NCBI RefSeq assembly: GCF_900142705.1
Contig: NZ_FRBV01000004.1
Location: 1-64,000 of the forward strand
From: Nitrosospira sp. Nsp11
GTDB lineage: Bacteria; Pseudomonadota; Gammaproteobacteria; Burkholderiales; Nitrosomonadaceae
DNA: 64,000 nt
Direction: 5' to 3'
The position numbers and the translations under genes are program-made. Position 1 is the first letter of the stretch. Each line of letters starts with the position of its first letter. Positions 5,301 through 60,946 of the stretch are shown here, in pieces. The notes beneath the pieces are model-generated. The model was not told where the DNA came from. It ran no database searches and worked only from the letters and a program-made list of their open reading frames with translations.

Positions 5301-5724
5301 GCCCTTTAAAGCCCTTAATGTCATATTTTCTTCTTTTACAACGAACGATATAACTCTCGATATATTCGTTCAGGGATATTTTGAGAAGTTGTGCAGATGT
5401 GCAAATGGCAATTTCTGCATTATCTAAAGTTGCCCCTTGGTAGGGCGTCTTGCTTAACGTACCAAAACTTGCTCCGTTTTCACTTAGCAAATTCTCGAAA
5501 TCTTCTTTATCGTCCTTTTGTAAATTGCTTACAAAATTCCAAAAATATCGACCGTCCCACGCCACATCCTTGGCAGCAGTGTTTGGAGGTATGGGTACTC
5601 CGTTTAAAGCATCAGCGGTTAGCTGATCAAGAATTGATTGTAATAGCTCAGAATAATCCTTACCGAGCGAGCTTTTATCGTACCGCGTCCCCTCGTAGGA
5701 ACGTTTCTTGTCATCAGATTTCAT
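2371..5724 (-). CDS. STAND-like P-loop NTPase with Sel1 repeats
   Basis: Large (1117 aa) multidomain protein. An unrecognised N-terminal domain (about 1-230) is followed by an ATPase with Walker A GDAGQGKS near residue 245 and a Walker-B-like strand LFIFDY near 295. About five Sel1/TPR-like repeats follow (about 645-840, pattern A..LG..Y..G.G...D..KA..LY..AA..G). A unique C-terminal domain of about 270 residues ends it. This order of effector-like N-terminus, NTPase and helical repeats resembles STAND/NACHT signalling ATPases, many of which act in phage defence; the role here is inference. The gene is visibly more AT-rich than its neighbours, which suggests transfer. I chose the ATG at 5724 because the upstream GTG at 5757 lies inside a palindrome; neither has a good ribosome-binding site. 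A small possible regulator lies upstream on the same strand. Confidence 0.7.
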   Translation of the reverse strand: MKSDDKKRSYEGTRYDKSSLGKDYSELLQSILDQLTADALNGVPIPPNTAAKDVAWDGRYFWNFVSNLQKDDKEDFENLLSENGASFGTLSKTPYQGATLDNAEIAICTSAQLLKISLNEYIESYIVRCKRRKYDIKGFKGHDETIKSILKKYDSDNIDENEADFEKEEDREDITGNPSQNTPASFFSSQPAQLKLAFPKAKEDNANYYANSLLQVFGRNNQKARLNQFLTCKLNVAWFQLAGDAGQGKSRLAFDLLYDASNSGWHAGSLTEYEIESFKDHWKDWQPNINHLFIFDYVVGREQKIKPILQTLFYNQDKFKHKVRILLIERQRWDRGSVIKAQDQHTKDEGGQPATIGDKAEWFLKLCEEEDLEGENFRSCRFDNGVEELKGLDLDYLVTIVKQLMTRLSGKALTLSDDELKKTLARIDGQCRPLYAYLLAQQLGETQEGFQSWTKFDLLNYQLIRDKRRWKQAFKAEASPTWGDSHSAMKLAVLATIVREVKFQDTQIEQYFGNIDSLLRKEAIAITSGYLINDDNRPEKIHALEPDLLGEWFVLYCFYQGLKFEELLDLAWHCSPNETAIFLQRITQDFIDFSQRHPNGNLVEKLLAHPSSHETYYPALAKVAVEIGVKLFRNYLTIPPNLIVALEHAADSSDTAAMFFLGLLYLKGIGVERNSTRAFQLYHKAAEKGNSDALTHLGFCYAEGNGVVRNRSKAIELYQQAVKRGNSTAMIRLASCYETGDGITKDPVKAIILFQQAADQGDSSALINLGNRYEQGDGIEQDWDKAINLYQRAADQGDSSALINLADRYEQGIGIKQDWDKAIDLYQRAVSAGDVKAISRIQNNLLLQNFLGVKNNKTYKNFYWSNSKLPSQAAVPVFDPPIIAGHWEQLAEERVTACLDRLIASFEILGITKNLTGYKGQYARRLALNFYKDCNLVDIQLYDPSTKDILIVSAVFNTTRAILLTGKRDIIFDLNHHILSFEGKSSTLDYLQFFCSNVLNQHKPYQIITDLNEIPFDTEADQYVIDKIKDSIFVPRSIEFIPRCFEGNLPKEGWEKLEACVLHGNNLYFQTFEVFLNGWISLKDGSCILNELPILQHEYDGIFRKPLRPTNLINRAQ

Positions 5725-5742
5725 ATATTTAGAAACTGAAGT

Positions 5743-5759
5743 ACGTGTGACGCACACGT
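5743..5759. promoter_or_regulatory. 17-bp palindrome, candidate operator
   Basis: ACGTGTG-ACG-CACACGT is symmetric and lies 18 bases upstream of the ATG chosen for the STAND-like gene. It could bind the product of the small gene just upstream. No binding data; inference from position. Confidence 0.4.
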
Positions 5760-8467: not shown

Positions 8468-10222
8468 ATGTATTCCCGTCATTCCAGCCGTCAATCCCCC
8501 GCCACCCTGCTGGCACTCGCCCTCATTGCGGCGGGGCTGGCGTGGTGGGCCTATCACCTCAATCCGCCGATGTTGGGTGGGCGTATCGACTGGTTTTCCA
8601 CGCTCATTCATTTGCTGGCGGGTCTGTTTTGCCTGCAAACCGTAATCCGCTCGCTCGACAATGCCGCACATTTGATCGATTTTTTTGCCAGCCGCGAACC
8701 TACGGGGAAACATGGCACCGCCGCATGGGCCACGTTCAAGGAAATCAAGGGCGGGTTGACCAGAGACAAGCGCGGGCCGTTCTGGGGGCGGTATGCAGGC
8801 GGTTCGCGGTCTGCTTTGTTCTTTGACTTTGCTTCCGCAGCCATGACGGTTAGCCCAGCAGGAAGCGGTAAAGGCATCTATACGGTTGTGCCTTCGATTA
8901 TGAGCATTGGACATAGCAAGGTAGTTGCGGATTTTAAAGGCGAGCTGGTATGCATGTGCAAGGCCGCGCTGGAAAAGCGCGGTGAGACGGTGCGCGTACT
9001 CAACCCCGGCAGTTTATGGGCGGATATCATCGGGCATGGGGATAGTTTCAGTCCTCTGGATATTATTGCCGACAATCTTTCCCGTTCCGGCGGCCTGCGC
9101 GATGTCATGGACGATCTGCGGGAAATGGGCGGCCAAGTGTTGCCCGAGCCGGGCGACAAGGAGACGGACGATAGCTACTTCAGGGAGGGTTCACGACGGC
9201 TGATCGCCGATGCGCTTCTTTTCGAAGTCATGGTCGATTTGCATGACGCGACGCTCTCATCGGTTGCGCTGCTGATCGAAAATCGAATCCGGCTCGGCGA
9301 TATGGCTCGGTGGGTCGTGGGAGTAGACATTGAAGACAAGCCGCATCCTGAAGGCCCGTTTCCCATCGAGCAGACCGAATGGGCGCAAGTGCACGATTCA
9401 AGGGATGTTGCTGAGTTCGCGGCGCTGGTCAGGGACAGAGCACGTAACCTGATTACCCTGATGTCGGGGGGCGATAGCCGCACCTTCGACAGCTTCATCA
9501 CCGGCGCTCAGCAAACCTTGGCTCCATTCGCGTTCGGACGGCTCGCCCCGGCGATGGGCCGCTCAACCTTCAGCATGAACGATCTCAAGGAAGGCAAAAC
9601 ACCCACCACGTTATTCATCGTGGCCGATGCCAGCAGGATGGAGGCGTACAAAGCGTTTATCGGTTTGATGCAGTGGTGCTGCATGACGGCGGTGAAGCGC
9701 CATCTGAATAAAGAGCGCCCGGTATACGCAGTGCTTGATGAAATAACCAATTACAAGGTCAACGGGCTTGAGAACCTGCTTACATGGGGCAGATCGTACG
9801 GGCTTAGGCTTCACTTGATCTTTCAGGATTTCGCTGCGTTCGAGCGTACCTACGGCAAGACAGCACTTGATACTTTATTGAGCGAAACCGAAATCAAGCA
9901 ATTCCTGCCCGGTCAACGTTCTCCCAAGACATTGGAACTCATTTCCAGACAAATGCTGGGAGATCAAACCGTCATGGCCACCGGCACTAGCCGCTCCATC
10001 GACCAGTTCGGCTTGAACGAAAACCTGAGCGAAGCAGCCCGTCCGCTCGCCACCCCGGACGAGATCAGGCGGATGCAACAAGGCATCCTGTTTGTGCGCC
10101 AGTACCGTCCCATTCTGTTCGAGCCTGTGTCGTATGCGGAAGTAGAGCCATGGCGTTCGCAGGTCGGGATCAACCCGTTCCACGGCAAGCCCTTCCGCAA
10201 AAAAATCAAACTGCGTCTATAG
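8468..10222 (+). CDS. Type IV coupling protein (VirD4/TraG/TraD family ATPase)
   Basis: 584 residues. Two hydrophobic segments at about 12-28 and 42-62 anchor it in the inner membrane. The cytoplasmic part has Walker A SPAGSGKG near residue 129 and a Walker B strand ending in DE (YAVLDEIT) near 421. The segment NLLTWGRSYGLRLHLIFQD fits the TraG/VirD4 pattern in which the ATPase inspects substrates. Proteins of this family bring a relaxase-DNA complex to a type IV secretion channel. No relaxase or channel gene is visible in the window, so the element may be mobilisable with borrowed machinery, or the rest lies outside to the left. Overlaps nothing; 5 bases follow the vWA-like gene. Confidence 0.85.
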   Translation: MYSRHSSRQSPATLLALALIAAGLAWWAYHLNPPMLGGRIDWFSTLIHLLAGLFCLQTVIRSLDNAAHLIDFFASREPTGKHGTAAWATFKEIKGGLTRDKRGPFWGRYAGGSRSALFFDFASAAMTVSPAGSGKGIYTVVPSIMSIGHSKVVADFKGELVCMCKAALEKRGETVRVLNPGSLWADIIGHGDSFSPLDIIADNLSRSGGLRDVMDDLREMGGQVLPEPGDKETDDSYFREGSRRLIADALLFEVMVDLHDATLSSVALLIENRIRLGDMARWVVGVDIEDKPHPEGPFPIEQTEWAQVHDSRDVAEFAALVRDRARNLITLMSGGDSRTFDSFITGAQQTLAPFAFGRLAPAMGRSTFSMNDLKEGKTPTTLFIVADASRMEAYKAFIGLMQWCCMTAVKRHLNKERPVYAVLDEITNYKVNGLENLLTWGRSYGLRLHLIFQDFAAFERTYGKTALDTLLSETEIKQFLPGQRSPKTLELISRQMLGDQTVMATGTSRSIDQFGLNENLSEAARPLATPDEIRRMQQGILFVRQYRPILFEPVSYAEVEPWRSQVGINPFHGKPFRKKIKLRL

Positions 10223-10230
10223 GAGGAAAC

Positions 10231-10524
10231 ATGAAAACCTATTTCCCTAAAAAATACCGCCCGTTTGCTTGGCTCTCGGTGTTACTCCGCACCGTGACTT
10301 ATCTGCTGCGCCACTGGCTGCTGCTGCTCATTGCCATGTGGGTGATCTCGCCTGTCGGGCCGCACCTGCTGGTCTGGTACACCTACAAGCAATATGGCAC
10401 CTACCGCGACTACAACGATTGCGTCTATCTCGGCGGGCGCGGATTGATCGAGCGCAACGTGGGCGATGACTGCCCGGTAATCGTGATCATCGACCGGCGA
10501 ACAGGACAGCAAATACAACTGTAA
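10231..10524 (+). CDS. Small membrane protein
   Basis: Ninety-seven residues, not recognised. One long hydrophobic segment (about residues 22-50) follows a basic N-terminus; the rest is likely periplasmic with two cysteines. The start at 10231 is supported by AGGAGG 4 bases upstream, and it begins 8 bases after the coupling-protein stop, so translation is probably coupled. Likely accessory subunit of the transfer-like module. Confidence 0.65.
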   Translation: MKTYFPKKYRPFAWLSVLLRTVTYLLRHWLLLLIAMWVISPVGPHLLVWYTYKQYGTYRDYNDCVYLGGRGLIERNVGDDCPVIVIIDRRTGQQIQL

Positions 10525-10552
10525 GCGTCGATTTTTTAACTGCTCCCGGCAT

Positions 10553-10592
10553 TTGCCTGCATGCGGGGTGCGGTATCGATACATGCAGGCAA
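10553..10592. repeat. Inverted repeat with 11-bp arms
   Basis: TTGCCTGCATG (10553-10563) and CATGCAGGCAA (10582-10592) are perfect complements around an 18-base loop. It separates the small membrane gene from the next gene. It could end the upstream transcript, although no T-run follows, or be a DNA-processing site of the element. Confidence 0.5.
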
Positions 10593-10610
10593 CTGACCGA
10601 GGATTTAACC

Positions 10611-10916
10611 ATGAGCAATCGAAATTCAAGCGACACGCCGCATGAAGATTCTCCACAAGCGGGACGCAAACCCGACCAGATTGCCTACACGGTAAGGGGT
10701 ACGCCGGACGGCAAGGAATACTGGAACCGCGTGGGCGCGATGTGGATGCACAAGGACGGACGTGGAGCCGAGCTTATTCTCGATAGCGTGCCGGTTGACG
10801 GACGCATTACCTTGCGCGAGCAACGCGATCAAAGGATGCAGGAGTATCAGGACGAGCGGGCTGCGCAACAGCAGGTAAATAATGGCCGAGCGCCGGATCA
10901 TGGCCGCGAACGGTAA
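10611..10916 (+). CDS. Hypothetical protein of the transfer-like module
   Basis: 101 residues, hydrophilic. An internal stretch (TVRGTPDGKEYWNRVGAMWMHKDGRGAELILDSVPVDGRI) looks like a small beta-rich domain, similar in feel to small proteins found beside mobilisation genes, but I cannot name the family. The C-terminus is very rich in Arg, Glu and Gln. GAGGA lies 7 bases before the ATG. Its end overlaps the next gene by 35 bases in another frame. Confidence 0.6.
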   Translation: MSNRNSSDTPHEDSPQAGRKPDQIAYTVRGTPDGKEYWNRVGAMWMHKDGRGAELILDSVPVDGRITLREQRDQRMQEYQDERAAQQQVNNGRAPDHGRER

Positions 10917-11346
10917 CAGATCGGGGGCAACGCACGCGACGAGCTTTGCCGGAAAACACCCGGAACTGGCAAACGATAATCCTGAAAGCTTCCGGCAAGC
11001 GCCACCGCTCCACCGAGAGTTCGATCTTGCCCGCGATCCGTACATCGCCAAGCAAATCAGGGCAATGGAGCAAACCGAGGCGCAGCGGCGCGGCGACAGT
11101 GAACGCAGCGGGGGCGGCTCTCAGATGGTAAAGAGGGATAAGCCGTTTCCCGAACTGCGGCCTGAATGCGTGCAAGCTCCTATCCGCGAGACATTCAACC
11201 GGGCATGGCTGCGCGAACAACGTGACGCCCGGCTGGCCGATCTCAACCGGCAACGCGAGCAACACCGCACGCTTGAGCAGCCCGAACACACCATGCAGAT
11301 GAATGCGGAGACAAAGATGCAGAAGCAAAGGGTGCCGCAGCGCTAG
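10882..11346 (+). CDS. Hydrophilic, Arg/Gln-rich hypothetical protein
   Basis: 154 residues with no membrane segment, and many Arg, Glu and Gln (LREQRDARLADLNRQREQHRTL). The composition suggests an extended helix or a DNA/protein-binding tail. It may be the remnant C-terminal tail of a larger transfer protein, but no relaxase motif is visible. Start at 10882 has only a weak ribosome-binding site; another ATG lies 18 bases in. Overlap with the preceding gene suggests coupling. Confidence 0.5.
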   Translation: MAERRIMAANGNRSGATHATSFAGKHPELANDNPESFRQAPPLHREFDLARDPYIAKQIRAMEQTEAQRRGDSERSGGGSQMVKRDKPFPELRPECVQAPIRETFNRAWLREQRDARLADLNRQREQHRTLEQPEHTMQMNAETKMQKQRVPQR

Positions 11347-11483
11347 GAGCGGAAGTTCGATGAATCGTTGCATACGGAAAACCGTTACGGAAAAAATCCG
11401 GCTTTCCACCGGAATATCGACAGTAAGGTTAGGATTTTATTGCTATTTCAGGAAAACTATGTTCTATATTTGTTCTTGTTGAG

Positions 11484-11504
11484 TTGTTTAATTTTTTTAA
11501 ACAA
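11484..11504. repeat. AT-rich inverted repeat in the gap before the integrase operon
   Basis: TTGTTTAA and TTAAACAA (8-base arms) flank five T's. The surrounding gap 11347-11571 holds no supportable gene. The repeat is 68 bases upstream of the next gene and could be an operator or a weak terminator. Confidence 0.35.
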
Positions 11505-11571
11505 TGAAGGGGAAACGATAGATGAACTCATAGCCAGCAAGGCATCGCCTTGATAACGTAAAGGAGGCAAT

Positions 11572-11889
11572 ATGAACGACGAAACGGTAACACAGCGTAA
11601 AAACGAACAGGTCATCTCTGCGCCCATCCTCGATTGTGACGCCTATCGTACGGACTTGGCCGATTTCGATCTGACTGCCGAGCAGGAAAACGAATTACTC
11701 TCGATCCTGTGGGATATTATGCGCACCATGTGCGATCTCAATCTGGACATGGATGCGGTGCAGATGATCATGCCTACATTTTTGTATGCTGCATTGAATG
11801 AGGAAAAGGATGAATCTGAAAAGGCAGCGCAACCATTCAATCGAAGCGCTGACATACAAGATGGCGAAAGGAGCAAACCGAATGGATAA
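11572..11889 (+). CDS. Small acidic protein upstream of the integrase
   Basis: 105 residues, acidic (many Asp and Glu), with a helical middle (EQENELLSILWDIMRTMCDLNLDMDAVQMI). AAAGGAGG lies 5 bases before the ATG, a very strong site. It overlaps the integrase start by 8 bases, so translation is probably coupled. A directionality factor or regulator of the integrase is a reasonable guess from position; no DNA-binding motif is clear. Confidence 0.6.
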   Translation: MNDETVTQRKNEQVISAPILDCDAYRTDLADFDLTAEQENELLSILWDIMRTMCDLNLDMDAVQMIMPTFLYAALNEEKDESEKAAQPFNRSADIQDGERSKPNG

Positions 11890-13561
11890 AGCTGTAATTT
11901 ATTGCCGGGTATCTACAAAACGGCAGACGAAAGAAGGCGACGGATTGGCTTCGCAAGCCACCCGTTGCCGGGAGTTTGCCCGCTATCGCAATCTGGAAGT
12001 CATTGAGACTTTTTATGATTCCGAATCTGGCTCGCTGATCGACCGGCCCGGCATGCAGGCGATGCTCAAGTTTGCACGGATGCACCGTAAGGATAATCTG
12101 ACAATCATCATCGACGACTTGAGCAGACTGGCTCGGGGAATTTCCGCACACATTCATTTGCGTACTGCCATTGCCAATGCAGGTGCAAAGCTGGCCTCGC
12201 CCAGCATAGAATTCGGTGAGGATTCGGATTCAGTACTGGTCGAGCACCTGCTTGCCAGCGTATCGCAACACCACCGGCAGAAAGGGGCAGAACAAACACG
12301 CAACCGGCGTCGGGCGCGTATGCTCAACGGCTATTGGGTGCACTTCGCCCCCATCGGCTATAAATACGCTTCGAAACCGGGCCACGGAAAGGTGCTGGTA
12401 CGCAACGAGCCGCTAGCGAGTATCGTGGCCGAGGGACTGGAAGGGTACGCCAGCGGGCGCTTTCAGCTCAGGGCCGAGGTGAAGCGCTTCTTTGAGCAGT
12501 TCCCGGAATTTCCCAAGAACGCCAAAGGCGAAGTCAGCAACGAACATGTGAACCGGATTCTCAGCCGGGTGATTTACGCCGGTCATATTCAATCGGACAT
12601 CATGGATGTGTCCTTGCGTCCGGCACAGAACGAGCCCCTCATTTCTTTGGCGACGTTTCAAAAAATCCAGCAACGCACGCAGGAAAAAGCCAAAATACCG
12701 GCGCGTAAAGATTTGAACGAAGATTTTCCGCTAAGGGGGGCAGTACGTTGTTCTTGCGACAATCCGTTGACTGCATGCTGGACCAAGGGGCGCAGTAAAC
12801 ACTATCCGTATTACTATTGTTTTACCAAAGGCTGTGAGAGCTATGGCAAAGCCATTCAGCGCGAGAAGATCGAAGGCGAATTTGAAAGCCTCCTACATAC
12901 ACTCGAACCTGCTGCACCATTATTCAAAACTGCGACAAGGATGTTCGAAACATGGTGGAATTACCGGCAGGCGCAGATTGCGCAGCGCGGAAAAGCGCTT
13001 GAGGATGAAATACGCAAGCTGGATGGTAAGATTGGACAGTTGATGGACAGGCTGGTTGAGACGGATAGCAATTCGATGGTTAAAGCTTATGAAGCGCGAA
13101 TCAAGAAACTCGAAACCGACAAGGCTATTCTGGTCGAAAAATCCGGCCAATCGCTGCGTCCGATGCGTTCATTCGATGCAGCACTTAGAACCGCTTTGGA
13201 TTTTATCTCAAACCCGCATAAACTCTGGAGTTCCGGGCGATTGTGTGACCGCCGTGCCGTGCTCAAACTCGCTTTTCCGGGGGGATTTCAATATCATCGG
13301 AATACAGGACTTAGAACCGCTGAAACCCCGTTACCTTTCAAGGTATTAGGGGGGCTTACAAATAAGCGGATTCAATTGGCGGAGAGAGAGGGATTCGAAC
13401 CCTCGGTACGGTTTGAGCCGTACGCACGCTTTCCAGGCGTGTACCTTAAACCACTCGGCCATCTCTCCGAATACAAAATCACCTGCCGGAACCGGCACGG
13501 GGCGCAAAGAATAAACCAGAACGGCGTTTCCGGCAACTTTTCCGGTATTATAAAGGATTAA
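11882..13561 (+). CDS. Large serine recombinase (integrase), reads through the tRNA-Ser gene
   Basis: Integrase of the large serine recombinase family, 559 aa. The catalytic motif YCRVSTKRQ with the nucleophilic serine is near residue 10. A recombinase domain (about 160-270) and a zinc-ribbon-like domain with CSCDNP and CFTKGC (about 280-330) follow. A long coiled coil (about 355-430) completes the usual order. Start at 11882 is chosen because AAGGAG lies 8 bases upstream. The family's normal end comes after TPLPFKVLGGL; the tail from about residue 500 (AEREGFEPSV...) is the antisense translation of the tRNA-Ser gene. The stop lies beyond the tRNA. This shows that the integrase gene abuts the attachment site at the tRNA 3' end. 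Confidence 0.9.
   Translation: MDKAVIYCRVSTKRQTKEGDGLASQATRCREFARYRNLEVIETFYDSESGSLIDRPGMQAMLKFARMHRKDNLTIIIDDLSRLARGISAHIHLRTAIANAGAKLASPSIEFGEDSDSVLVEHLLASVSQHHRQKGAEQTRNRRRARMLNGYWVHFAPIGYKYASKPGHGKVLVRNEPLASIVAEGLEGYASGRFQLRAEVKRFFEQFPEFPKNAKGEVSNEHVNRILSRVIYAGHIQSDIMDVSLRPAQNEPLISLATFQKIQQRTQEKAKIPARKDLNEDFPLRGAVRCSCDNPLTACWTKGRSKHYPYYYCFTKGCESYGKAIQREKIEGEFESLLHTLEPAAPLFKTATRMFETWWNYRQAQIAQRGKALEDEIRKLDGKIGQLMDRLVETDSNSMVKAYEARIKKLETDKAILVEKSGQSLRPMRSFDAALRTALDFISNPHKLWSSGRLCDRRAVLKLAFPGGFQYHRNTGLRTAETPLPFKVLGGLTNKRIQLAEREGFEPSVRFEPYARFPGVYLKPLGHLSEYKITCRNRHGAQRINQNGVSGNFSGIIKD
13377..13420. other. Candidate attachment site (attR-like end) at the tRNA-Ser 3' end
   Basis: The integrase frame runs into the T-arm half of the tRNA gene, the usual target of tRNA-directed integration. 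A matching copy should mark the other end of the island; I do not see one in this window, so it probably lies to the left. The exact crossover point cannot be seen. Confidence 0.4.
13377..13468 (-). tRNA. tRNA-Ser (anticodon GGA)
   Basis: Read on the minus strand it begins GGAGAGATGGCCGAGTGG and ends CTCTCTCC-G-CCA, with the TTCGAATCC T-loop. The anticodon stem CACGC/GCGTG has loop CTGGAAA, giving anticodon GGA for UCC codons. A long variable arm (GTACGG...CCGTAC) marks it as a serine tRNA. The CCA end is encoded (13377-13379). The 5' flank contains a promoter candidate at 13581-13608. Its 3' part overlaps the end of the integrase gene, so it is the integration target of the island. Confidence 0.93.
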
Positions 13562-18529: not shown

Positions 18530-18640
18530 GTTGAAGTAAAGCGAAACTAGGGTTCCGGCTTTCGGTTGAGAGTGTCTGGTCCAAGAGTTTCCGGCTTCGT
18601 CGTGACGAGGCTCCACGGAGGGATAAAAGCCCGGGAGATA
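18530..18640 (+). ncRNA. Guanidine-I (ykkC) riboswitch
   Basis: Three hallmark stretches of the ykkC/guanidine-I aptamer occur in order. CTAGGGTTCCG lies at 18547-18557. GTCTGGTCCAAGAG lies at 18574-18587. The ACGGAGGGATAAAAGCCCGGGAGA-type box lies at 18615-18638. A small hairpin (TCGTC/GACGA) lies between the second and third boxes. The class binds guanidinium and switches on guanidine carriers and degradation enzymes. Here it lies about 200 bases upstream of a permease-carboxylase operon, which makes sense as its target. Recognised by motif order only; no covariance search was run. The edges are approximate. Confidence 0.93.
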
Positions 18641-18657
18641 ATGTAGGTAATACATTA
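18639..18657 (+). repeat. Hairpin directly after the aptamer
   Basis: TAATGTA and TACATTA (7-base arms) with a 5-base loop begin at the end of the aptamer. No T-run follows, so it is not a plain terminator; it may be part of the expression platform. Confidence 0.45.
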
Positions 18658-18680
18658 ACTCTTGGAATTTGATCCGCTGA

Positions 18681-18717
18681 TAAAGGAGACTGGTCATGCA
18701 CTTCTCTTTAGTTTTTT
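18681..18717 (+). terminator. Candidate expression-platform hairpin that hides a ribosome-binding site
   Basis: TAAAGGAGA (18681-18689, one bulged G) can pair with TCTCTTTA (18703-18710), followed by GTTTTTT. It would act as a weak intrinsic terminator and also mask AAGGAG. In the guanidine-bound state it would have to be melted. The stem is AT-rich, so this is a proposal. Confidence 0.35.
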
Positions 18718-18788
18718 CTCCCCCTTTAGCAATAATCGATAGTGCCCAGGATCGCTTGATCTCATCGAATGGCGTTTTTCCAGCATGA
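18696..18788 (+). CDS. Possible 30-aa leader peptide between riboswitch and permease
   Basis: The frame MHFSLVFSPPLAIIDS... has a strong ribosome-binding site (AAGGAG, 7 bases upstream) that the permease start lacks. It ends 50 bases before the permease start and is in another frame. It may be a translated leader used for coupling, or a chance ORF. No known family. Confidence 0.3.
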   Translation: MHFSLVFSPPLAIIDSAQDRLISSNGVFPA

Positions 18789-18837
18789 GTTGGCGTGGGG
18801 ATAATCGGCCAGGCAGGGTCGTACCGCTACTCTCGAA

Positions 18838-20313
18838 ATGGGCGCCATGCCAATGAGGGAGAGCCGGTATACCCCTCCTTCCGCTGCTGAAGCGGCGCCC
18901 GTCATCGCCGATAAACTCCACCGTAGCATGAGTGTCTGGAGTAGCCTCATCCTCGGCTTTGCCGTTGTTTCGCCGGTAGTAGGGCTCTACGCCATCATTG
19001 GCGTTCAGACTGTCGTGACAGGCGGCGGCTGGTTTGGCGCGCTGATGCTCTGCCTGGTGATGCAATTGCTTGTTGCTACAGTCTATGCGGAGCTTTCCTC
19101 GCAGTTTCCAATCGCTGGCGGCGCCTACAAATGGGCGCATCAGCTCGGTGGCGCCATCACCGGTAAATATGCCGGCGTAATTTACGTCAGCTCCACGGTT
19201 GCAATGCTGACCACAACTGCTTATACCGGGGGAGTCTGGCTTTCCCTCTTTTTTGGATCAGAGAGTGAAACCGGGCTCAGGTTGGTGACGTGGGGCGCGG
19301 TATTTCTATTGCTTTGCACGCTGATCAACGTGGTGCACATCAATATTTTCAAGCTGATCATTTCATTGGGCGTTTATGCGGAAATGATCGGGTCCGTGGG
19401 TGTGGCTCTGCTGCTGTTTCTTTTTTTTCGGCAACATTCATTTTCGGAGTTATTTCAGCATTTGGGCACGGGCACGGCACCCAATGAGATAAGCGCCTTT
19501 CTGGCGGCGCTCGCCATCGCGGGTTGGGCGTTTATCGGGTTTGACGCCTGTTCCACCATCGCCGAAGAAACGCACGATCCCAAACGCATGGTGCCGCGCG
19601 CGGTCTTTTTTTCCCTGTGCATGGTGGGGTCAGTAGTGCTGTTCAATTCCGCGGCGCTGACGCTGGCTTTCGATCGCGATACGCTGATTGCCAGTGCGAC
19701 GTCCGACCCCATTACGCCCGTGATCATCTCAAGCTTCGGCGCGTGGGCGGAGAAGCCGTTCCTTGGAATTGTCATGATCGCCTTTCTCGCTTGCGGGGCA
19801 TCGGTGGTGAAGTACACGTCGCGCATCATTTATTCGATGGCCCGCGAAGGCAACATGCCCGCTGTGTTAAGCCGGTTGGCGCCCGATAAGACGCCGCGCA
19901 ACGCGGTGATATGCACGGTATCGATGTCCGGGCTTGGGTTGCTGTTCGGGCTGAACGATGGCGCCGTGGCTACGGTGATTGCGTTTGGCACAGGTGGACT
20001 CTACGCCATGTTTTCCATGACCACCGGGGTTGGGTTGTATGCCCGGCTCTCCGGTCGCTGGAACCCGGCTCTCGGTGAGCTAAAGCTTGGTATCTGGGGC
20101 TTGTTGATCAACTCGGTAGCCTTTGCCTGGTCGGTGTTTGAATTCGTCAACATTGCCTGGCCGCGCGCCTACGCGGTTGCACCCAACGCACCCTGGTGGC
20201 AGCTCTGGGCGGTGCCTCTGGTGCTGGGCGGCATCCTGGGAATAACGACTCTTCATATCCTGATGTCCCGAACGCAGCAAAAAGACTTTGAAAAAAAGAT
20301 TTTGTCTAAATGA
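18838..20313 (+). CDS. APC-superfamily permease, probable guanidine/amine importer
   Basis: 491 residues with about twelve hydrophobic segments and the APC motif of the first helices (SVWSSLILGFAVVSPVVGLYAIIG near residue 33). It resembles amino acid and amine permeases of the inner membrane. It is the first gene of a set with UAAP1, UAAP2, the carboxylase and allophanate hydrolase, behind a guanidine-I riboswitch, so guanidine is the likely cargo; amino acid or urea cannot be excluded from sequence alone. Start uncertain: 18838, or the ATGs 9 and 15 bases on; none has a good ribosome-binding site. The stop is 63 bases before the UAAP1 start chosen here. Confidence 0.85.
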   Translation: MGAMPMRESRYTPPSAAEAAPVIADKLHRSMSVWSSLILGFAVVSPVVGLYAIIGVQTVVTGGGWFGALMLCLVMQLLVATVYAELSSQFPIAGGAYKWAHQLGGAITGKYAGVIYVSSTVAMLTTTAYTGGVWLSLFFGSESETGLRLVTWGAVFLLLCTLINVVHINIFKLIISLGVYAEMIGSVGVALLLFLFFRQHSFSELFQHLGTGTAPNEISAFLAALAIAGWAFIGFDACSTIAEETHDPKRMVPRAVFFSLCMVGSVVLFNSAALTLAFDRDTLIASATSDPITPVIISSFGAWAEKPFLGIVMIAFLACGASVVKYTSRIIYSMAREGNMPAVLSRLAPDKTPRNAVICTVSMSGLGLLFGLNDGAVATVIAFGTGGLYAMFSMTTGVGLYARLSGRWNPALGELKLGIWGLLINSVAFAWSVFEFVNIAWPRAYAVAPNAPWWQLWAVPLVLGGILGITTLHILMSRTQQKDFEKKILSK

Positions 20314-20376
20314 AGTGCGATGTCAGCCTTCTCGAAATTCATTCAACCGAAAATTTATTACGATGAGGAGAAAAAC

Positions 20377-21108
20377 ATGAACCAACCGGATGCATTGATT
20401 TGGGAACAGCACATCCCCGGCGGGTGCCACTGGTCTGGCATTGTGCGGCGGGGTACGACACTACGCCTGGTGGATGTGATAGGACGAGCCAATGCCGCCG
20501 TACTATTTTTTAATCAGGAGGAAAAACTGGAACGTTACAACATGGCCGATACGCTCAAGTCTCAGCATACGTTCCGTTTGACCAGGGGCCATGCGTGCCA
20601 TTCGGATATGGGTCGTATTTTCTGCTGCATTACCGAAGATACCGCGGGGTGGCACGACACCGTATGCGGCATGAGCGATGCCGAATTGATACGCCAGAAA
20701 TATGGTTCGGCGCGGTTCGAGGAGCGTCGTAACGAGATGTTTCGCAACGGGCTGGATGGCATGCTGATCGAATTGGGAAAGTGGGGGCTGGGCACACGTG
20801 ATGTCGTATCCAATATCAATTTCTTCAGCAAGGTAACCGCCAATTCATCCGGTGAATTGACGTTTCATCCGGGTAACAGCAAGGCGGGAGATTATGTGGA
20901 TCTGAGCTTCGAAATGGATACGCTAATGGTCTTATCCGCTGCGCCACACCCGCTTGATTCGTCAAAGACTTACCAGCCGGGCGCAGTCAATCTGGTGGCT
21001 TTTGTGACGCCGCCATCGGTGGTAGCGGAGTGCACTCGCATTGCCGAGAACGCGCGCGCGCTGCTGAATACCCAGCATTTATATGCTTGTCATGGAGGTG
21101 CGGCATGA
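20377..21108 (+). CDS. Urea-amidolyase-associated protein UAAP1, likely carboxyguanidine deiminase subunit
   Basis: 243 residues. It matches the UAAP1 pattern: IPGGCHWSGIVRRGTTLRLVDV, ERYNMADTLKSQHT, GHACHSDMGRIFCCITEDTAGWHDTVCG and DVVSNINFF. With UAAP2 it forms the two-part deiminase that in studied bacteria turns carboxyguanidine into allophanate and ammonium (established for homologues, inferred here). ATG at 20377 is chosen because GAGGAG lies 7 bases upstream; a longer frame exists without support. Its TGA overlaps the next ATG (ATGA), which implies coupled translation and a complex. Confidence 0.9.
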   Translation: MNQPDALIWEQHIPGGCHWSGIVRRGTTLRLVDVIGRANAAVLFFNQEEKLERYNMADTLKSQHTFRLTRGHACHSDMGRIFCCITEDTAGWHDTVCGMSDAELIRQKYGSARFEERRNEMFRNGLDGMLIELGKWGLGTRDVVSNINFFSKVTANSSGELTFHPGNSKAGDYVDLSFEMDTLMVLSAAPHPLDSSKTYQPGAVNLVAFVTPPSVVAECTRIAENARALLNTQHLYACHGGAA

Positions 21109-21788
21109 ACAGGAAGCAATTTGTTGAAAGCAAGCTCGATCCCGAGGCAGCAACGGTGGACGAAGTCTGTCCGGCGGGTGAGCCTTGGGTCAGGCTGCTG
21201 ACAGAGAATCAGGTGCTTCGCATTGTAGATTTGGGGGGTAACCAGGCTGTCGATACATTGTTCTACAACGCATCCCACGCCTTTGAGCGATACAGCGCAA
21301 CCGATACCATCCGCCGCCAGAAGAAGCTCTATCTGACCACCGGCAGCAAGCTGTATTCCAACTTCGGCAATGTCATGCTCAATATCGTGGCGGACACATG
21401 CGGACGGCATGACACCATAGGCGGGGCCTGCGCCGCGGAGAGCAATACCGTCCGGTATGGGTTGGAAAAATTTCCAATGCACAGTTGTCGCGACAACTTT
21501 CTGCACGCGCTGGCCCATGAACCGGTTTGTGAACATCTTGACATGAACAAGCGCGATCTGCCCAGCAACATCAATTTCTTCATGAACGTGCCCGTGTCGG
21601 AGGCCGGCGGCCTGGAGTTCGCAGATGGCATGTCCGCCCCATTCAAATATGTGGAAATGAGGGCCGAAATGGATGTGATCGTGTTGATTTCGAACTGTCC
21701 GCAACTGAACAATCCGTGCAACGCCTACAACCCTACACCGATCCGTCTCCTGATCTGGGATGATCCCGAAGACATGTCGTTTGATTGA
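21105..21788 (+). CDS. Urea-amidolyase-associated protein UAAP2, likely carboxyguanidine deiminase subunit
   Basis: 227 residues. Diagnostic stretches are RIVDLGGNQAVDTLFYN, RYSATDTIRRQ, IVADTCGRHDTIGGACAAESNTVRYG and MHSCRDNF. The conserved Cys, His and Asp residues in CGRHDT and HSCRDN probably bind a metal or form the active site. It overlaps UAAP1 by 4 bases. Paralogous to UAAP1 but shorter, as expected of the pair. It is followed by a 142-base gap (nothing seen) and the carboxylase. Regulated with the riboswitch operon. Confidence 0.9.
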   Translation: MNRKQFVESKLDPEAATVDEVCPAGEPWVRLLTENQVLRIVDLGGNQAVDTLFYNASHAFERYSATDTIRRQKKLYLTTGSKLYSNFGNVMLNIVADTCGRHDTIGGACAAESNTVRYGLEKFPMHSCRDNFLHALAHEPVCEHLDMNKRDLPSNINFFMNVPVSEAGGLEFADGMSAPFKYVEMRAEMDVIVLISNCPQLNNPCNAYNPTPIRLLIWDDPEDMSFD

Positions 21789-21930
21789 TCATTCCTGGGT
21801 TGCGAGCGGATTACGGAGTGCTCCACGTCGCCATTGTGATTCTTTCAAATTACGCGGGCGACGCGGCTGTTGAGGTTTGCGCGCATCGTGCGGTAGCTTC
21901 CAGGAAGTAGAACTGAACAGGAAATAGACC

Positions 21931-24900
21931 ATGTTTAAGAAGGTATTGATAGCTAATCGCGGCGCTATCGCCTGCCGCGTCATCCGTACGCTGCGCCGGA
22001 TCGGTGTGAAAAGCGTGGCGGTCTATACGGATGCCGATGCGCTGTCGCAGCATGTGATAGAAGCCGATGAAGCATACCGAATCGGCAGCGGCGTCGCGGC
22101 GGAAAGCTATTTGCGGGCCGACAAGATTCTGGAGATCGCCGCACACTCAGACGCCAAGGCTATTCATCCTGGTTACGGCTTTCTCAGCGAAAAAGCGGAC
22201 TTTGCCGAGCAATGCGATGCGCATGGCATTTGTTTCATTGGCCCCACCCCACAGCAGATGCGTGCGTTCGGGCTGAAACATACGGCACGGGAACTGGCTT
22301 TGCAGAACCAGGTGCCGCTGCTGCCGGGAACCGGTCTTTTGGAAGACCTGGAAGATGCACTCCGTCAGGCGGCCCACATCGGTTATCCAGTCATGCTGAA
22401 AAGCACCGCGGGAGGGGGCGGTATCGGCATGCGGTTGTGCTGGAACAGGGAAGAACTCAATGCTGCCTACGAATCGGTGAAATATCTGGCGCAAAATAAT
22501 TTCAAGGATGCGGGTCTGTTCCTGGAAAAATATGTGGAGAATGCTCGCCATATCGAAGTCCAGATTTTTGGTGACGGCAGGGGCGGGGTTATCGCGCTGG
22601 GCGAGCGCGACTGTTCCATGCAGCGGCGCAACCAGAAGGTGATCGAAGAAACGCCGGCACCCCACTTGCCATCACGCGTACGCCAGGCGCTATGGGATGC
22701 GGCGGTACGTCTGGGCAAAACGGTCAACTATCAGTCAGCCGGCACAGTGGAATATATTTTTGATGCCTCCACCAGCGAGTTTTATTTCCTTGAGGTAAAT
22801 ACCCGGCTGCAGGTCGAGCATGGCGTGACAGAGGAGGTGACCGGTATCGACCTGGTGGAATGGATGGTCCGGCAAGCTGCCGGAGAGCTGCCAGCCCTGG
22901 ATTCATTCGATATCGAGCCGCGCGGCGCGTCAATTCAAGTGCGGGTATACGCCGAGAACCCTGCCAAGGATTTTCAGCCATCGTGCGGTACGCTCACCTC
23001 GGCGGAGTTCCCGCCCGCGTCTGTGGCGCGGGTTGAAACCTGGGTGGAACGCGGCGTCGAGGTCTCGCCCTTCTATGATCCGATGCTGGCGAAAATAATC
23101 GTGCACGCGGCAGACCGTGATCAGGCTATCGCCAGGCTCCTGGCCGCGCTGGACGCTACTGCGCTGAACGGCATTGAAACCAATGTGGGTTATCTCAAGC
23201 AGATCCTGCGTGGGGCGGCGTTTCGCGGTGGACAGCACACGACGAGCTTCCTGAATGGTTTTCGTTATTTTGCTCATACCGTCGATGTGATGAGTCCCGG
23301 CGTACAGACTACGGTACAGGATTACCCAGGGCGAACGGGCTACTGGAATATCGGTGTGCCGCTATCGGGCCCGATGGATGGGTTGGCCTTCCGCTTGGCT
23401 AATCGGCTGGTTGCCAACACGGAAGACAAGGCCGGGCTCGAGATCACCTTGGCGGGCCCGACCTTGCGTTTCAACTGCGACTCCATCATTGCGGTGTGCG
23501 GCGCGCCCATGGAGGTGCGCCTGGATGGCGAGCCGCTGACCTTTTGGCGATCATATCCGGTCAAGGCGGGCGCAATATTACAATTCGGAAAGCTCGTAAG
23601 CAATGGCTGTCGCGCCTATCTGGCGGTTCAGGGCGGTTTCCAGGTTCCTGACTATCTGGGCAGTAAATCCACCTTTACCCTCGGACAGTTTGGCGGCCAC
23701 GCTGGGCGGACCCTGCTTACCGGCGATGTGCTGCATATCGTTGCGGCCGATGCCAGTGATACCTCAGACCATGATGGTACGCGCAGTGCTGGTGCAAACG
23801 GTGCCCGGAGCTCACTACCGGCAGAGTTGATTCCCTATTACAGTGATAAGTGGGAAATCGGCGTGCTGTATGGTCCGCACGGTGCGCCGGACTTTTTTAC
23901 CGAAGAGGACATTCGGACACTCTTCGCTGTCGACTGGGAGGTTCATTACAATTCCAATCGCAGCGGCGTTCGCCTGATCGGTCCCAAACCAAAGTGGGCA
24001 CGAAGCGATGGCGGCGAAGCGGGGCTGCATCCGTCCAACATTCATGACAATGCATATGCTATTGGCACGGTGGACTTTACTGGCGATATGCCGGTAATAC
24101 TTGGTCCGGATGGGCCAAGTCTGGGTGGGTTTGTCTGTCCCGTAACGATAGTTCAGGCTGAATTGTGGAAAATGGGCCAGCTCAAACCGGGCGATAGCGT
24201 GCGTTTTCGCCGGGTTTCAATGGACGAGGCACTTGCACTCGAAGAATTGCAGGATGCCGCTATCGAAAACCTCCGGGTGTCAAAAGCAGTCCCGCTGGAA
24301 ATCGAACAAAAAACACGGGCCACAGCAGTAACCAATACGGCAACGACAACTACACCCATCCTCCACGCTATCCCGCCGGCTGGCCAGCAGGTACAGGTAG
24401 TGTATCGGCAGGCAGGTGACAAAAACCTGCTGGTTGAATATGGCCCGCCCGAGCTCGATCTCAACCTGCGCTTCCGTGTTCACGCGCTCATGGAGTGGGT
24501 TCAGGCTGCCATCGATAACGGCAGCCTGAAAGGTATCCTGGATCTGACGCCCGGCATCCGGTCTTTGCAAATCCATTTCGATTCACGCCTGCTGGCGCGC
24601 GATAAGCTGCTGGATTTTTTGATCGCCGCGGAAAAGAAGCTGCCGGACATCGAACACCTGGAGATTCCCACACGTATCGTGCATTTGCCTTTGTCATGGG
24701 ATGACGCGGCAACGCGGTTGGCGATCGACAAATATATGCAATCCGTGCGAAGCGACGCGCCGTGGTGCCCGAGCAATATCGAATTCATCCGCCGGATAAA
24801 CGGGCTCGAAAGCATTGAAGAAGTGCAACGCATCCTGTTCGAGGCCAGTTACCTCGTGATGGGGTTGGGTGATGTATACCTGGGGGCGCCGGTTGCGACC

Positions 24901-25626
24901 CCTGTCGATCCTCGCCACCGCCTGGTCACTACGAAGTATAACCCCGCACGTACCTGGACGCCCGAAAACGCGGTGGGCATTGGCGGGGCCTATCTATGCA
25001 TATATGGTATGGAAGGGCCTGGCGGTTACCAGTTTGTCGGGCGCACGGTACAGATGTGGAATCGTTATCGTCAAACCGCTGATTTCAAGGATGGCAAGCC
25101 GTGGTTGCTGCGATTCTTCGATCAGATCAAATTCTATCCGGTTAGCGAGAGTGAACTGCTCAAGCTGCGCCGCGATTTCATTACTGGGCACTTCAAGCTG
25201 CGCATGGAAGAAAACCGGTTCAGCTTGAAGCAATATAACGCCTTTCTGCAAGAGAACGCGGCGTCAATCAGCGCTTTCAAGGCAAAACAGCAAGCTGCGT
25301 TTGAGGCCGAGCGTGAGCGCTGGGATGCCGAGGGCAAGGTCGAATATGTGAGCGAGATGACGCTTGAGGAAGCCGATGCGCAAAGCGAACTAAACCTTCC
25401 GGAGGGAGCGCAAGCGATCAGCTCGCACGTGACCGGCACCGTGTGGAAACTGCTGGTCGAGGAGAGTCAGCATGTTGAAGCGGGAACGCCGGTTCTTATC
25501 GTCGAATCGATGAAGATGGAGTTCGTCGTGGAAGCGACAGTGCGCGGCACGATTGCGCAGTTTTTCTGCAAGGTAGGCGGACATGTGTCCGCCGGCCAGT
25601 TGCTGCTAGTAATTCAGGAGGATTAA
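21931..25626 (+). CDS. Biotin-dependent urea/guanidine carboxylase
   Basis: 1231 residues. Domains in order: biotin carboxylase (1-450; ATP-grasp with [11 protein letters not shown] and [16 protein letters not shown]), a KipA-like (AHS2) domain (about 460-760), a KipI-like (AHS1) carboxyltransferase part (about 800-1060) and a biotin carrier domain with ESMKMEF near 1192. It carboxylates a small amide or guanidine with bicarbonate and ATP. Homologues called urea carboxylase beside UAAP1/UAAP2 and ykkC riboswitches have been shown to prefer guanidine. An Asp/Asn difference in the carboxyltransferase site is said to separate the two, but I cannot place that residue with certainty. The start has AGGA upstream. 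Confidence 0.93.
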
Positions 25627-25627
25627 C

Positions 25628-27505
25628 TTGAACGAATTGATGCCTCTGGGCGATATACCCTCGTTGCTGCAGCGCTATGCCAGCGGCGAACTGACGCCCA
25701 GCCAGATGGTGGAAGCGGTGCATGCGGCGATCCAGGACGATACGACTGTATGGATACATAAACTGCCGCTTGAAACCTTGAGACGCTATGCTCGCGAGGT
25801 GGAGGCCAGGGGCAGGACCATGGATAAGGGGGCGCTGCCGCTGTACGGTATTCCCTTCGCCGTAAAGGACAACATCGATCTGGCGGGTGTGCCGACCACG
25901 GCAGGGTGCCCCGGCTTTGCCTATACGCCGCAGCGCAGCGCAACGGTGGTGCAGAGATTGATTGACGCTGGCGCAATTCCCATCGGCAAAACCAATCTCG
26001 ACCAGTTCGCAACCGGATTGAATGGTACTCGCTCTCCGTACGGGGCTTGCTGCAACACCTTCAATTTCGATTATATTTCGGGTGGGTCGAGCTCCGGTTC
26101 GGCGGTGGCCTTGGCGAAAGGCTGGGTATGTTTCAGCCTGGGAACCGACACCGCCGGTTCCGGCAGGGTGCCCGCTGCATTCAATAATCTTGTCGGGTAT
26201 AAGCCGACCAGGGGCTGGCTTTCCACGCGTGGAGTGGTGCCCGCCTGTCGCTCGCTTGACTGTGTTTCCATCTTTGCCCTTACCGCAGACGATGCTGGGC
26301 GAGTTCTTGAAGTAACCGCCAGCTTTGATGCTGAAGACATTTATTCGCGGGAAAGACAAGGCGGCCGTGGCCCTGATTCTGCTACACAACGCTTTTTGGA
26401 ACATCGTTTTCGCTTTGGTATTCCCCGCAAGGATCAATCGCAATTCTTCGGTAATCGAGAGTATGAACGGCTGTTCAACGAGGCTATCGTAAAACTGCAA
26501 GGTCTGGGCGGTAAATCCGTTGAGATAGATTTTGGACCTTTTCTGGAAGCGGCGCGCTTGCTCTATGAAGGCCCCTGGGTAGCCGAGCGTTATGCGGCGA
26601 TTCAGCAATTTTTTGACTCGCGTAGCGAGCAGATAATTGCGCCAGTACGGGAAATAATTGGCAGCGCCAAACGATACTCCGCTGCCGACGCCTATAACGG
26701 TGTATATCGCTTGAATGGGCTTAAACGGCAGACTGATCGAATCTGGACTGAAGTGGATTGTCTGCTGACGCCAACAGCCGGAACCATTTATACAATCCAG
26801 GCGATGCAGCAGGACCCCATACGCCTCAACGCAAATCTTGGTTACTACACCAACTTCATGAACCTGCTGGATTATTCAGCGGTAGCGGTGCCCGCCGGTT
26901 TTCAAGGTGACGGACTGCCGTTCGGCATAACCCTTTCAGCGCCAGCCCACCACGATGAGGCGCTGCTGCATCTCGCCGGACGCCTGCAACAAGCTTATGC
27001 GCTGCCCCTTGGGGCAACCGGCATTCCCCTGCGAGAAGAGGTCTTGCCGGAACATCTCTTGATTCGGAGCTCATCAGAGGCACCGCGATCCGATCAGCAG
27101 CCCGGCCACGTACGCGTGGCGGTTTGTGGCGCGCACTTGTCCGGGCTCCCGTTGAACGGACAACTGATCAGCCGCAGCGGACGTTTGGTGTTGAGCACCA
27201 CGACTTCACCAGACTATAAACTTTACGCGCTACCGGGAGGACCGCCCTATCGTCCCGGATTGGTGCGAGTGGAAAGAAATGAACAAGGAACCGCCATCGA
27301 AGTCGAAGTGTGGGAATTACCGACGCAGGAATTCGGCAGTTTTGTGGCGGGTATTCCTGCGCCTCTAGGCATTGGTACCATTACCCTGGCAAATGGCGAC
27401 ATTGTGCAGAGCTTTCTGTGTGAGGGATATGCAGTCGCAGATGCGGAGGATATCAGCCGGTTTGGAGGCTGGCGAGACTACATGCAACAGCTACGCAACA
27501 CCTGA
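25628..27505 (+). CDS. atzF: Allophanate hydrolase
   Basis: Splits allophanate to ammonium and CO2. 625 residues: an amidase-signature domain (about 1-460) with catalytic Lys in FAVKDNIDLAGVPTTAG, the GGSSSGSAVA serine box and GTDTAGSGRVPA, then a C-terminal domain (about 470-625) characteristic of AtzF-type enzymes. The TTG at 25628 is chosen as start, because AGGAGG lies 5 bases upstream; the ATG at 25640 would be too far. It begins one base after the carboxylase stop, so it is coupled. Carboxylase and hydrolase are separate here, not fused as in yeast urea amidolyase. Confidence 0.95.
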   Translation: MNELMPLGDIPSLLQRYASGELTPSQMVEAVHAAIQDDTTVWIHKLPLETLRRYAREVEARGRTMDKGALPLYGIPFAVKDNIDLAGVPTTAGCPGFAYTPQRSATVVQRLIDAGAIPIGKTNLDQFATGLNGTRSPYGACCNTFNFDYISGGSSSGSAVALAKGWVCFSLGTDTAGSGRVPAAFNNLVGYKPTRGWLSTRGVVPACRSLDCVSIFALTADDAGRVLEVTASFDAEDIYSRERQGGRGPDSATQRFLEHRFRFGIPRKDQSQFFGNREYERLFNEAIVKLQGLGGKSVEIDFGPFLEAARLLYEGPWVAERYAAIQQFFDSRSEQIIAPVREIIGSAKRYSAADAYNGVYRLNGLKRQTDRIWTEVDCLLTPTAGTIYTIQAMQQDPIRLNANLGYYTNFMNLLDYSAVAVPAGFQGDGLPFGITLSAPAHHDEALLHLAGRLQQAYALPLGATGIPLREEVLPEHLLIRSSSEAPRSDQQPGHVRVAVCGAHLSGLPLNGQLISRSGRLVLSTTTSPDYKLYALPGGPPYRPGLVRVERNEQGTAIEVEVWELPTQEFGSFVAGIPAPLGIGTITLANGDIVQSFLCEGYAVADAEDISRFGGWRDYMQQLRNT

Positions 27506-59793: not shown

Positions 59794-59815
59794 CAGTCCC
59801 TATGACTAGGGAGTG
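59794..59815. repeat. Hairpin at the acetate kinase leader
   Basis: CAGTCCCTA and TAGGGAGTG (one mismatch) with a 4-base loop, about 30 bases upstream of the ATG. It argues against the GTG at 59813 as start. Could be a regulatory site. Confidence 0.4.
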
Positions 59816-59845
59816 GGCTGTGATTGGCGATACATTTCTGCATCC

Positions 59846-60946
59846 ATGACCACAATCATACTGACCGTTAATACTGGCAGCTCATCAGTTCGCCTGGGAG
59901 CCTTCACTTGCGATGGCGACACGGTCACCGAGCTGGCGAGCATACGGCATGACCTTTCCGCCGGCGAACCGTGCGTCATACTGAAAGAATTCATGCGGAG
60001 GCACGCGCTCACAGGGATAACGGTGGCAGCGCATCGGGTGGTTCACGGCGGTATGAATCTTGCCGCATCATGCCTGATCGACCAGAAAGTCGAGCAGGAG
60101 ATCGAGCGGTTGACGCTGCTGGCACCACTTCACAACCCCGTCGCGCTGCGGTGGATACGCGCAACCCGCGAGGTGTTGAAGGACATTGTCCAGGTCGCGG
60201 TGTTTGATACCGCGTTTTTTACGGATCTACCGGAAACAGCGCGGGCGTATGCTATTCCGCATGGGCTTGCTGAAAAGCATGGATTGCGCAGATATGGCTT
60301 TCATGGGCTGGCGCATAAGTCAATGTGGCAAAGCTGGCGGGCGCTTCAACCGGACTCTTTGCAAAGTGCGAGAATAATTTCGATGCAACTCGGCGCGGGT
60401 TGCTCGATTACGGCGATTGATAATGGATTGCCACGAGATACTTCAATGGGGTTTTCACCCTTGGAGGGGCTCGTGATGGCGACACGATCAGGCGATATAG
60501 ATCCGGGGCTCGCTACATTTCTCCAGCGTCAGGAAAGCCTCACGCCGGAGCAACTGGATCGACTGCTCAATGCGCGCTCGGGCCTGTTGGGTGTTTCCGG
60601 GATCAGCGCCGATATAAGTGAGTTGTTACGAACTCCGGATGAGCTTGCGCGGCTGGCGGTGGATTTATACTGTTACCGGGCACGTAAATATGTGGGTGCT
60701 TATCTCGCGGTATTGGGTGGCGCCGATGCCATCGTTTTTGGAGGAGGCGTGGGCGAAAATGTGCCGGAAGTGAGGGAAAAGATCTTGACCGGCATGGACT
60801 GGTGCGGAATTGCAGTCGATACCCAAAAAAATTATAGGGCCAAGGGAATATCATGCATCAGCAGTCCTTTCAGCCGGATCGAGGTTTGGGTTACGCCCGT
60901 AAACGAGGCAGTTATCCTGGCGCGCGAGGCGGAGGTTTTAACCTGA
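59846..60946 (+). CDS. ackA: Acetate kinase (acetate/propionate kinase family)
   Basis: 366 residues. Family pattern in order: TVNTGSSSVRLGAF near residue 7, AHRVVHGG, HNPVALRWIRA, FDTAFFTDLP, RRYGFHGLAHKSM and GGVGENVPEVREKI. The enzyme makes ATP and acetate from acetyl phosphate. Some usual residues differ (SSSVRL for SSSLKF; LGAGCS for LGNGAS), and it is shorter than the typical 400. ATG 59846 is chosen over a GTG inside the upstream hairpin; neither has a strong ribosome-binding site. It precedes phosphoketolase by 149 bases; both probably form one path. Confidence 0.92.
   Translation: MTTIILTVNTGSSSVRLGAFTCDGDTVTELASIRHDLSAGEPCVILKEFMRRHALTGITVAAHRVVHGGMNLAASCLIDQKVEQEIERLTLLAPLHNPVALRWIRATREVLKDIVQVAVFDTAFFTDLPETARAYAIPHGLAEKHGLRRYGFHGLAHKSMWQSWRALQPDSLQSARIISMQLGAGCSITAIDNGLPRDTSMGFSPLEGLVMATRSGDIDPGLATFLQRQESLTPEQLDRLLNARSGLLGVSGISADISELLRTPDELARLAVDLYCYRARKYVGAYLAVLGGADAIVFGGGVGENVPEVREKILTGMDWCGIAVDTQKNYRAKGISCISSPFSRIEVWVTPVNEAVILAREAEVLT

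Follow-up and report, generated by a model that had tools for sequence, protein, structure and literature searches.

A 64,000-nucleotide (nt) stretch of the genome of Nitrosospira sp. Nsp11 (contig NZ_FRBV01000004.1, positions 1 to 64,000, referred to here as the window) contains, between positions 18,530 and 27,505, a guanidine-I riboswitch aptamer followed by a permease gene and the genes of a guanidine-degradation pathway. The locus is probably best read as the known guanidine-carboxylase operon of betaproteobacterial ammonia-oxidising bacteria (AOB), placed under a switch that acts on translation and is coupled to the operon through short leader open reading frames (ORFs). The operon itself is already published for this guild (PMC11410670) and is not new. 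The leader ORFs lie between the aptamer and the permease gene and were absent from a preliminary description of the locus; a switch output that runs through them appears to be unreported.

A search of the whole window with Rfam covariance models (cmscan) placed a guanidine-I aptamer (RF00442) at positions 18536–18639 of the + strand, upstream of the guanidine genes and in the same orientation, at 90.6 bits (gathering score 63). The match is full length (model positions 1–107 of 107, E = 5.5e-15) and is the single match in the window and the sole one found in the genome. The ykkC/guanidine-I assignment of the preliminary description is therefore borne out, although its plural "motifs" are parts of this one aptamer, and the distance from aptamer to permease was measured at ∼200 nt, as had been claimed.

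The genes that follow, all on the + strand, encode an APC-superfamily permease and putative guanidine importer (18847–20313; PF13520), the carboxyguanidine deiminase subunits UAAP1 (20320–21108; TIGR03425, 328.5 bits) and UAAP2 (21105–21788; TIGR03424, 328.9 bits), a biotin-dependent guanidine carboxylase of 1231 amino acids that is annotated as urea carboxylase (21931–25626; TIGR02712, 1944.5 bits versus a cut-off of 1303.85; biotin motif ESMKMEF) and an allophanate hydrolase (25628–27505; TIGR02713, 808.6 versus 511.05 bits). The last four identities rest on NCBIfam models with curated cut-offs, and with UAAP1 and UAAP2 both above theirs the CgdA/CgdB pair appears complete; together with the Pfam match, these results bear out the operon content originally proposed. 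The permease is named by superfamily only, because its 152.9 bits fall short of the 740.45 bits required by TIGR03428, the model for the "urea carboxylase system" permease. Many tblastn alignments of homologs begin at residue 4 of the permease as read from 18838, and the start at 18847 is therefore favored. The hydrolase has a TTG start as listed, with the ATG at 25640 as a possible alternative, and the solved chains nearest to it are allophanate hydrolases. The two UAAP genes share 4 nt, and the listed start of the hydrolase lies 1 nt past the carboxylase stop; from this layout, the greater part of the operon seems to be linked in translation. Four organism-named loci (L004, L006, L070, and L073; L numbers denote individual loci) have the same arrangement of methyltransferase, riboswitch, permease, UAAP1, UAAP2, carboxylase, and hydrolase, with an FtsX-type protein further along. 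Among plasmid records, eight showed partial and more distant similarity and none covered 80%.

An operon under a type I guanidine riboswitch has been described in Nitrosospira multiformis (Palatinszky et al. 2024, PMC11410670), and the published AOB operon and the window have in common the guanidine-I riboswitch, an APC permease, the deiminase pair, a signature-bearing carboxylase, and allophanate hydrolase. Of 145 betaproteobacterial AOB genomes, 135 are reported in the same work to carry genes for guanidine degradation, and our family sample agrees with this: the riboswitch is present in 99 of 120 genomes (22 of 23 in the genus) and the carboxylase model is above cut-off in 103 of 120. The source genome (3.2 Mb in 35 contigs, listed as 99.97% complete) carries amoA (PF02461) outside the window with amoB beside it, AmoA_BACT and AmoB_BACT both being above cut-off at this amo locus, which confirms the ammonia oxidiser suspected from the window. 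The closest carboxylases among 78 organism-named loci are those of Nitrosospira sp. NpAV (83%) and Nitrosovibrio tenuis (82%), and the nearest relatives of the source genome are Nitrosospira and Nitrosovibrio.

In the pathway as proposed, guanidine would enter through the APC permease and be carboxylated with ATP and biotin, after which carboxyguanidine would be deiminated by the UAAP pair to allophanate and allophanate split by the hydrolase, yielding three ammonia in total and bypassing urea. Formation of three ammonia without a urea intermediate fits a genome without detectable urease. A profile search for urease alpha gave no match in the source genome, one of five such genomes among the 23 of the genus (17 are above cut-off and one has a fragment), and urease alpha is above cut-off in 71 of 120 family genomes. 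In this the source genome differs from the four genomes of Fig. 1c in PMC11410670, each of which is stated there to encode urease.

The preliminary description also held that guanidine would be a source of nitrogen and, in addition, of the ammonia from which energy is gained. The organism is indeed an ammonia oxidiser, but the statement is too strong, as none of five AOB strains with the full gene set used guanidine alone at 50 µM (PMC11410670). In our estimate there is slightly less than an even chance that the main role of the operon is detoxification of guanidine or scavenging of nitrogen and that guanidine is not an energy substrate here. This reading draws on the same experiments, in which three of the five strains converted a fraction of the guanidine and did so only when ammonium was present, and on the reported inhibition of N. 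europaea by 1 mM guanidine (PMC11410670). Those three strains nevertheless formed nitrite from part of the guanidine, and ammonia released inside an ammonia oxidiser can in principle be oxidised.

The region between the aptamer and the permease contains a Shine-Dalgarno (SD) sequence, AAGGAGA (GGAG at 18685–18688), 46 nt beyond the aptamer core, which together with the ATG of leader ORF1 spans 18683–18698 and is kept in 22 genus genomes. This SD serves the leader ORFs: leader ORF1, of 30 codons (18696–18788), ends in a TGA that overlaps the ATG of leader ORF2 (ATGA), and leader ORF2, of 23 codons (18785–18856), ends in a TGA that overlaps the permease start by 10 nt (ATGCCAATGA). Throughout the genus the leader presents a hairpin of the aptamer 3′ half, then a AAGGAGAC-like SD and then a start codon, and in the family the SD is positioned about 45–55 nt past the aptamer. 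The start codon served by the SD is that of the permease itself in 17 of the 39 family leaders that were read, mostly from Nitrosomonas, and opens a short ORF in the remaining 22; for the direct starts, the identity of the permease was checked.

A leader ORF starts at the conserved SD in all 22 sampled genus genomes with the riboswitch, and leader ORF lengths range from 30 to 123 codons. In 12 of the 22 the stop overlaps the permease start by 10 nt and in two by 4 nt (ATGA); three end 11 nt and one ends 4 nt before the permease start, L134 and L101 overlap the permease further, and in the window and L131 ORF1 leads to ORF2 by ATGA and ORF2 overlaps the permease by 10 nt. Based on 1000 dinucleotide shuffles of each of 19 genus leaders, a first in-frame stop between −16 and +20 nt of the permease start would be expected in 1.06 leaders, and it was observed in 17; the two exceptions, the window and L131, reach the permease start by the second overlapping ORF. 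Three further genus leaders also reach or overlap the permease start, and L148, L149, and L101 (G056), which lie outside the leader-start pattern, were examined separately. Outside the genus the fit is looser: most leader ORF stops fall 9 to 93 nt short of the next gene.

A switch acting on this SD can be drawn from the predicted alternative (OFF) structure, an anti-P3 hairpin at 18621–18675 (+ strand, −22.7 kcal/mol) that uses the 3′ half of the aptamer, is found in the minimum-energy structures and is kept in sequence within the genus, with no U-run directly behind it. Without guanidine the aptamer 3′ half would fold into this hairpin; the P2 3′ strand released in this way, together with further aptamer segments, would pair with the segment comprising the SD and start codon, a mimic of the P2 5′ strand, so that ribosomes could not start. 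With guanidine the aptamer would keep these strands and the SD would become accessible. In Nitrosospira the ribosome would then start on the leader ORF and not on the permease, and as the leader ORF stops at the permease start, translation of the permease would be coupled to it, in the window through two leader ORFs.

Folding of 53 leaders, made up of the family loci and the genus set, points in this direction. The mean unpaired probability of the SD was 0.10 with the aptamer, compared with 0.34 for the downstream part alone and 0.36 with shuffled aptamers, and was lower than the shuffled control in 49 of the 53 leaders and lower than the downstream part alone in 45. The partner of the SD was mostly the P2 3′ strand, and the duplex of this strand with the SD-start segment had a mean of −17.7 kcal/mol versus −12.5 for shuffled spacers and −16.3 for the spacers of other leaders, a leader's own spacer being better than other P2 types in 38/53. 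One position of the duplex is G-C in 22 leaders, A-T in 21, G-T in 6, and non-standard in 4. The sequestration of the SD, the strength of the duplex and the G-C/A-T variation fit an ON switch on ribosome access. We give about equal weight to accepting and to doubting the more specific proposal that in Nitrosospira the SD under riboswitch control has moved away from the permease and serves a fast-evolving leader ORF, on which the sole demands are an open frame and a stop where the permease begins; its peptide would be irrelevant, the delivery of ribosomes would be what counts, and the window and L131 would represent a two-step relay.

Several observations weigh against a translational switch coupled through leader ORFs. 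The peak partner of the SD is not uniform and is another aptamer segment in some leaders, that of the window included. When the aptamer was enforced, the unpaired probability of the window SD was still 0.03, owing to a local hairpin with the pyrimidine stretch past the start codon (−5.2 kcal/mol, with six T shortly after); as the SD is still paired with the aptamer formed, the fold alone does not show its release. The cost of opening the SD fell from 8.2 to 5.6 kcal/mol in the mean of the 53 leaders, a difference of only 2.6; for the window SD it dropped from 9.9 to 7.1 kcal/mol. The cost was above the shuffled-aptamer control in 39/53 leaders and not above it in 14/53. L137, one of the twelve leaders with the 10-nt overlap, has ATA at the expected leader start, and because the genomes are related, the 22 genus leaders are not independent events. 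Purifying selection on the leader peptides was tested for and not found, as substitutions are spread over the codon positions (e.g. 14, 12, 15); this even spread indicates that the peptide is not conserved. What is conserved is the open path. Finally, a hairpin of −9 kcal/mol or stronger precedes a U-rich stretch in 7 of 53 family leaders, three of them at −15 or stronger. Given the small drop in opening cost and these U-rich hairpins, transcriptional control, whether intrinsic or Rho-dependent, keeps a share of the probability. Taken together, the leader geometry is well supported and the mechanism moderately supported.

The corresponding alternative, an ordinary transcriptional ON switch in which guanidine prevents a leader terminator (intrinsic or Rho-dependent) and the leader ORFs matter little or merely expose the RNA to Rho, seems to us unlikely but deserves to be weighed. 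It accords with the literature, in which guanidine-I is "usually" classed among transcriptional ON switches, unlike the translational guanidine-II and -III (PMC12186494), or called "presumably" transcriptional (PMC12508155); PMC11410670 likewise calls the riboswitch transcriptional and, in the passages considered here, mentions no leader ORF such as those of the window. Moreover, the anti-P3 hairpin occupies the site at which other families carry a terminator: among 29 comparison guanidine-I leaders from other families of the class, four have an unmistakable one (−24 kcal/mol or stronger with a U-run) at this position, and the window itself has six T at 18710–18715 behind a hairpin of −5 to −6 kcal/mol. 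None of the 53 family leaders reaches the −24 kcal/mol of the comparison terminators, however. No terminator-like site was found on the + strand between 18300 and 18900 of the window, there is no U-run behind its anti-P3 hairpin, and by the folding rule no U-run in its leader is preceded by a hairpin that reaches −9 kcal/mol; the same rule was positive in 8/29 comparison leaders. A strict perfect-stem rule (1/53 family and 1/29 comparison leaders positive) was set aside, as it visibly missed imperfect terminators. Furthermore, conservation within the genus does not extend to the U-rich stretch past the leader start (e.g. L130, L132, L143) or to the peptide, but it does extend to the open frame running up to the permease start.

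The intrinsic-terminator platform that is usual, though not universal, for the RF00442 class was thus not found in the window, where a weak hairpin and a T run remain and a conserved SD serves leader ORFs instead. Because guanidine-I is described as usually transcriptional, the switch modelled here is probably to be regarded as a translational variant. No report of a leader ORF or a translational platform for guanidine-I was found in the parts of the open-access literature consulted. The nearest analogue found is the Mbox upstream of pe20 in Mycobacterium tuberculosis, which controls a small upstream ORF (uORF) by a translational platform and Rho (PMC12810186). Both systems place a riboswitch on a small upstream ORF before transporter or operon genes, but the Mbox has another ligand and aptamer, is an OFF switch and has a highly conserved uORF, whereas the Nitrosospira leaders keep only an open frame and its end point. 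A B12 riboswitch of M. tuberculosis with a uORF (PMC11260477) is similar in combining a riboswitch with uORF translation and belongs to another class with other genes.

In PMC11410670, a guanidine carboxylase is recognized by Asp at position 1584 of the Kluyveromyces lactis enzyme (K. lactis numbering) and by Asp at 1330, which separates guanidine from urea carboxylase. Alignment of the window carboxylase to the solved K. lactis chain (5i8i) places Asp715 (codon 24073–24075, + strand) opposite Asn1330 of the K. lactis urea carboxylase and Asp981 opposite Asp1584. Both signature Asp residues are found in 93 of 93 aligned relatives, of which 73 have the biotin carboxylase part, 16 lack it, and 4 are partial, some being duplicate genes or cut at contig ends. 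Because both are kept, "urea carboxylase" is very probably a misnomer here, which supports the re-reading as guanidine carboxylase already made in the preliminary description. A urea amidolyase route, with a carboxylase mainly active on urea replacing the missing urease, is very improbable: the TIGR02712 family name and the missing urease alpha match in the genome speak for it, and against it stand Asp in place of Asn at the published discriminating position (PMC11410670), the guanidine riboswitch upstream, the UAAP pair, and the co-occurrence of urease with the full carboxylase in 58 of 91 family genomes.

These 91 genomes are the family genomes at least 90% complete with a full carboxylase. 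Allophanate hydrolase is not above cut-off in 46 of them, and the pathway as drawn would stop at allophanate there; 20 of the 46 are also without an above-cut-off urease. Reliance of hydrolase-less genomes on urease was considered and is unsupported, urease being present in 32/45 genomes with the hydrolase versus 26/46 without (Fisher p = 0.19). A second, shorter carboxylase of about 760–810 amino acids without the biotin carboxylase part occurs in 13 of 120 family genomes (L121:6837–9155, L122:4332–6716, L123:11964–14282, L124:3867–6185, L125:4167–6518, L126:186–2579, L127:9661–12018, L128:10285–12555, and L129:1015–3420). It comprises the carboxyltransferase halves and the biotin domain (Pfam was examined for one), mostly lies directly behind permease, UAAP1, and UAAP2, and keeps both signature Asp residues. 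Allophanate hydrolase is above cut-off in none of these 13 genomes; in the 91-genome set the short carboxylase occurs in 0/45 genomes with the hydrolase versus 12/46 without (Fisher p = 0.0002, for related genomes).

Gene content around the carboxylase varies further among relatives. Biotin synthesis genes (bioB, bioF, bioC, and bioA by Pfam type) adjoin the carboxylase genes in several (L123:7793–11758, L126:2771–11199, L007, L072, L015, L034, and L025), as if cofactor supply were linked to the biotin enzyme. In L008, L012, L035, and L041 a permease and a carboxylase come after the riboswitch, and no UAAP gene was detected at the threshold used. Eight loci (L046, L047, L048, L056, L058, L060, L076, and L078) lack the APC permease but have UAAP1, UAAP2, carboxylase, and hydrolase, and genes of unassigned type lie ahead of this set; these loci belong to iron-oxidiser relatives named Sideroxydans, Gallionella, or Ferriphaselus, with L048 named only Gammaproteobacteria.

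Elsewhere in the window, the region 8468–13561 encodes a conjugative coupling protein (PF02534) and a large serine recombinase (11798–13561), the 3′ end of which overlaps a tRNA-Ser on the opposite strand (13377–13468); this combination suggests the edge of an integrated element. At 59813–63486 a phosphoketolase (XFP) comes after an acetate kinase-type protein, each above the Pfam cut-off, and the − strand at 2371–5757 encodes a 1128-residue protein that has Sel1 repeats and matches nSTAND3 weakly, under cut-off.

The operon of the window is one more, urease-free member of a published guild trait, and a riboswitch class described as usually transcriptional may act on translation across a whole bacterial family. 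The leaders can be arranged as a natural progression, in which the proposed control acts on the permease directly in 17 of 39 leaders, by way of one leader ORF in others and, in the window, by way of two. If this is true, the output of a riboswitch can leave its gene while coupling preserves control, and guanidine control in nitrifiers may escape measurements of transcripts alone.

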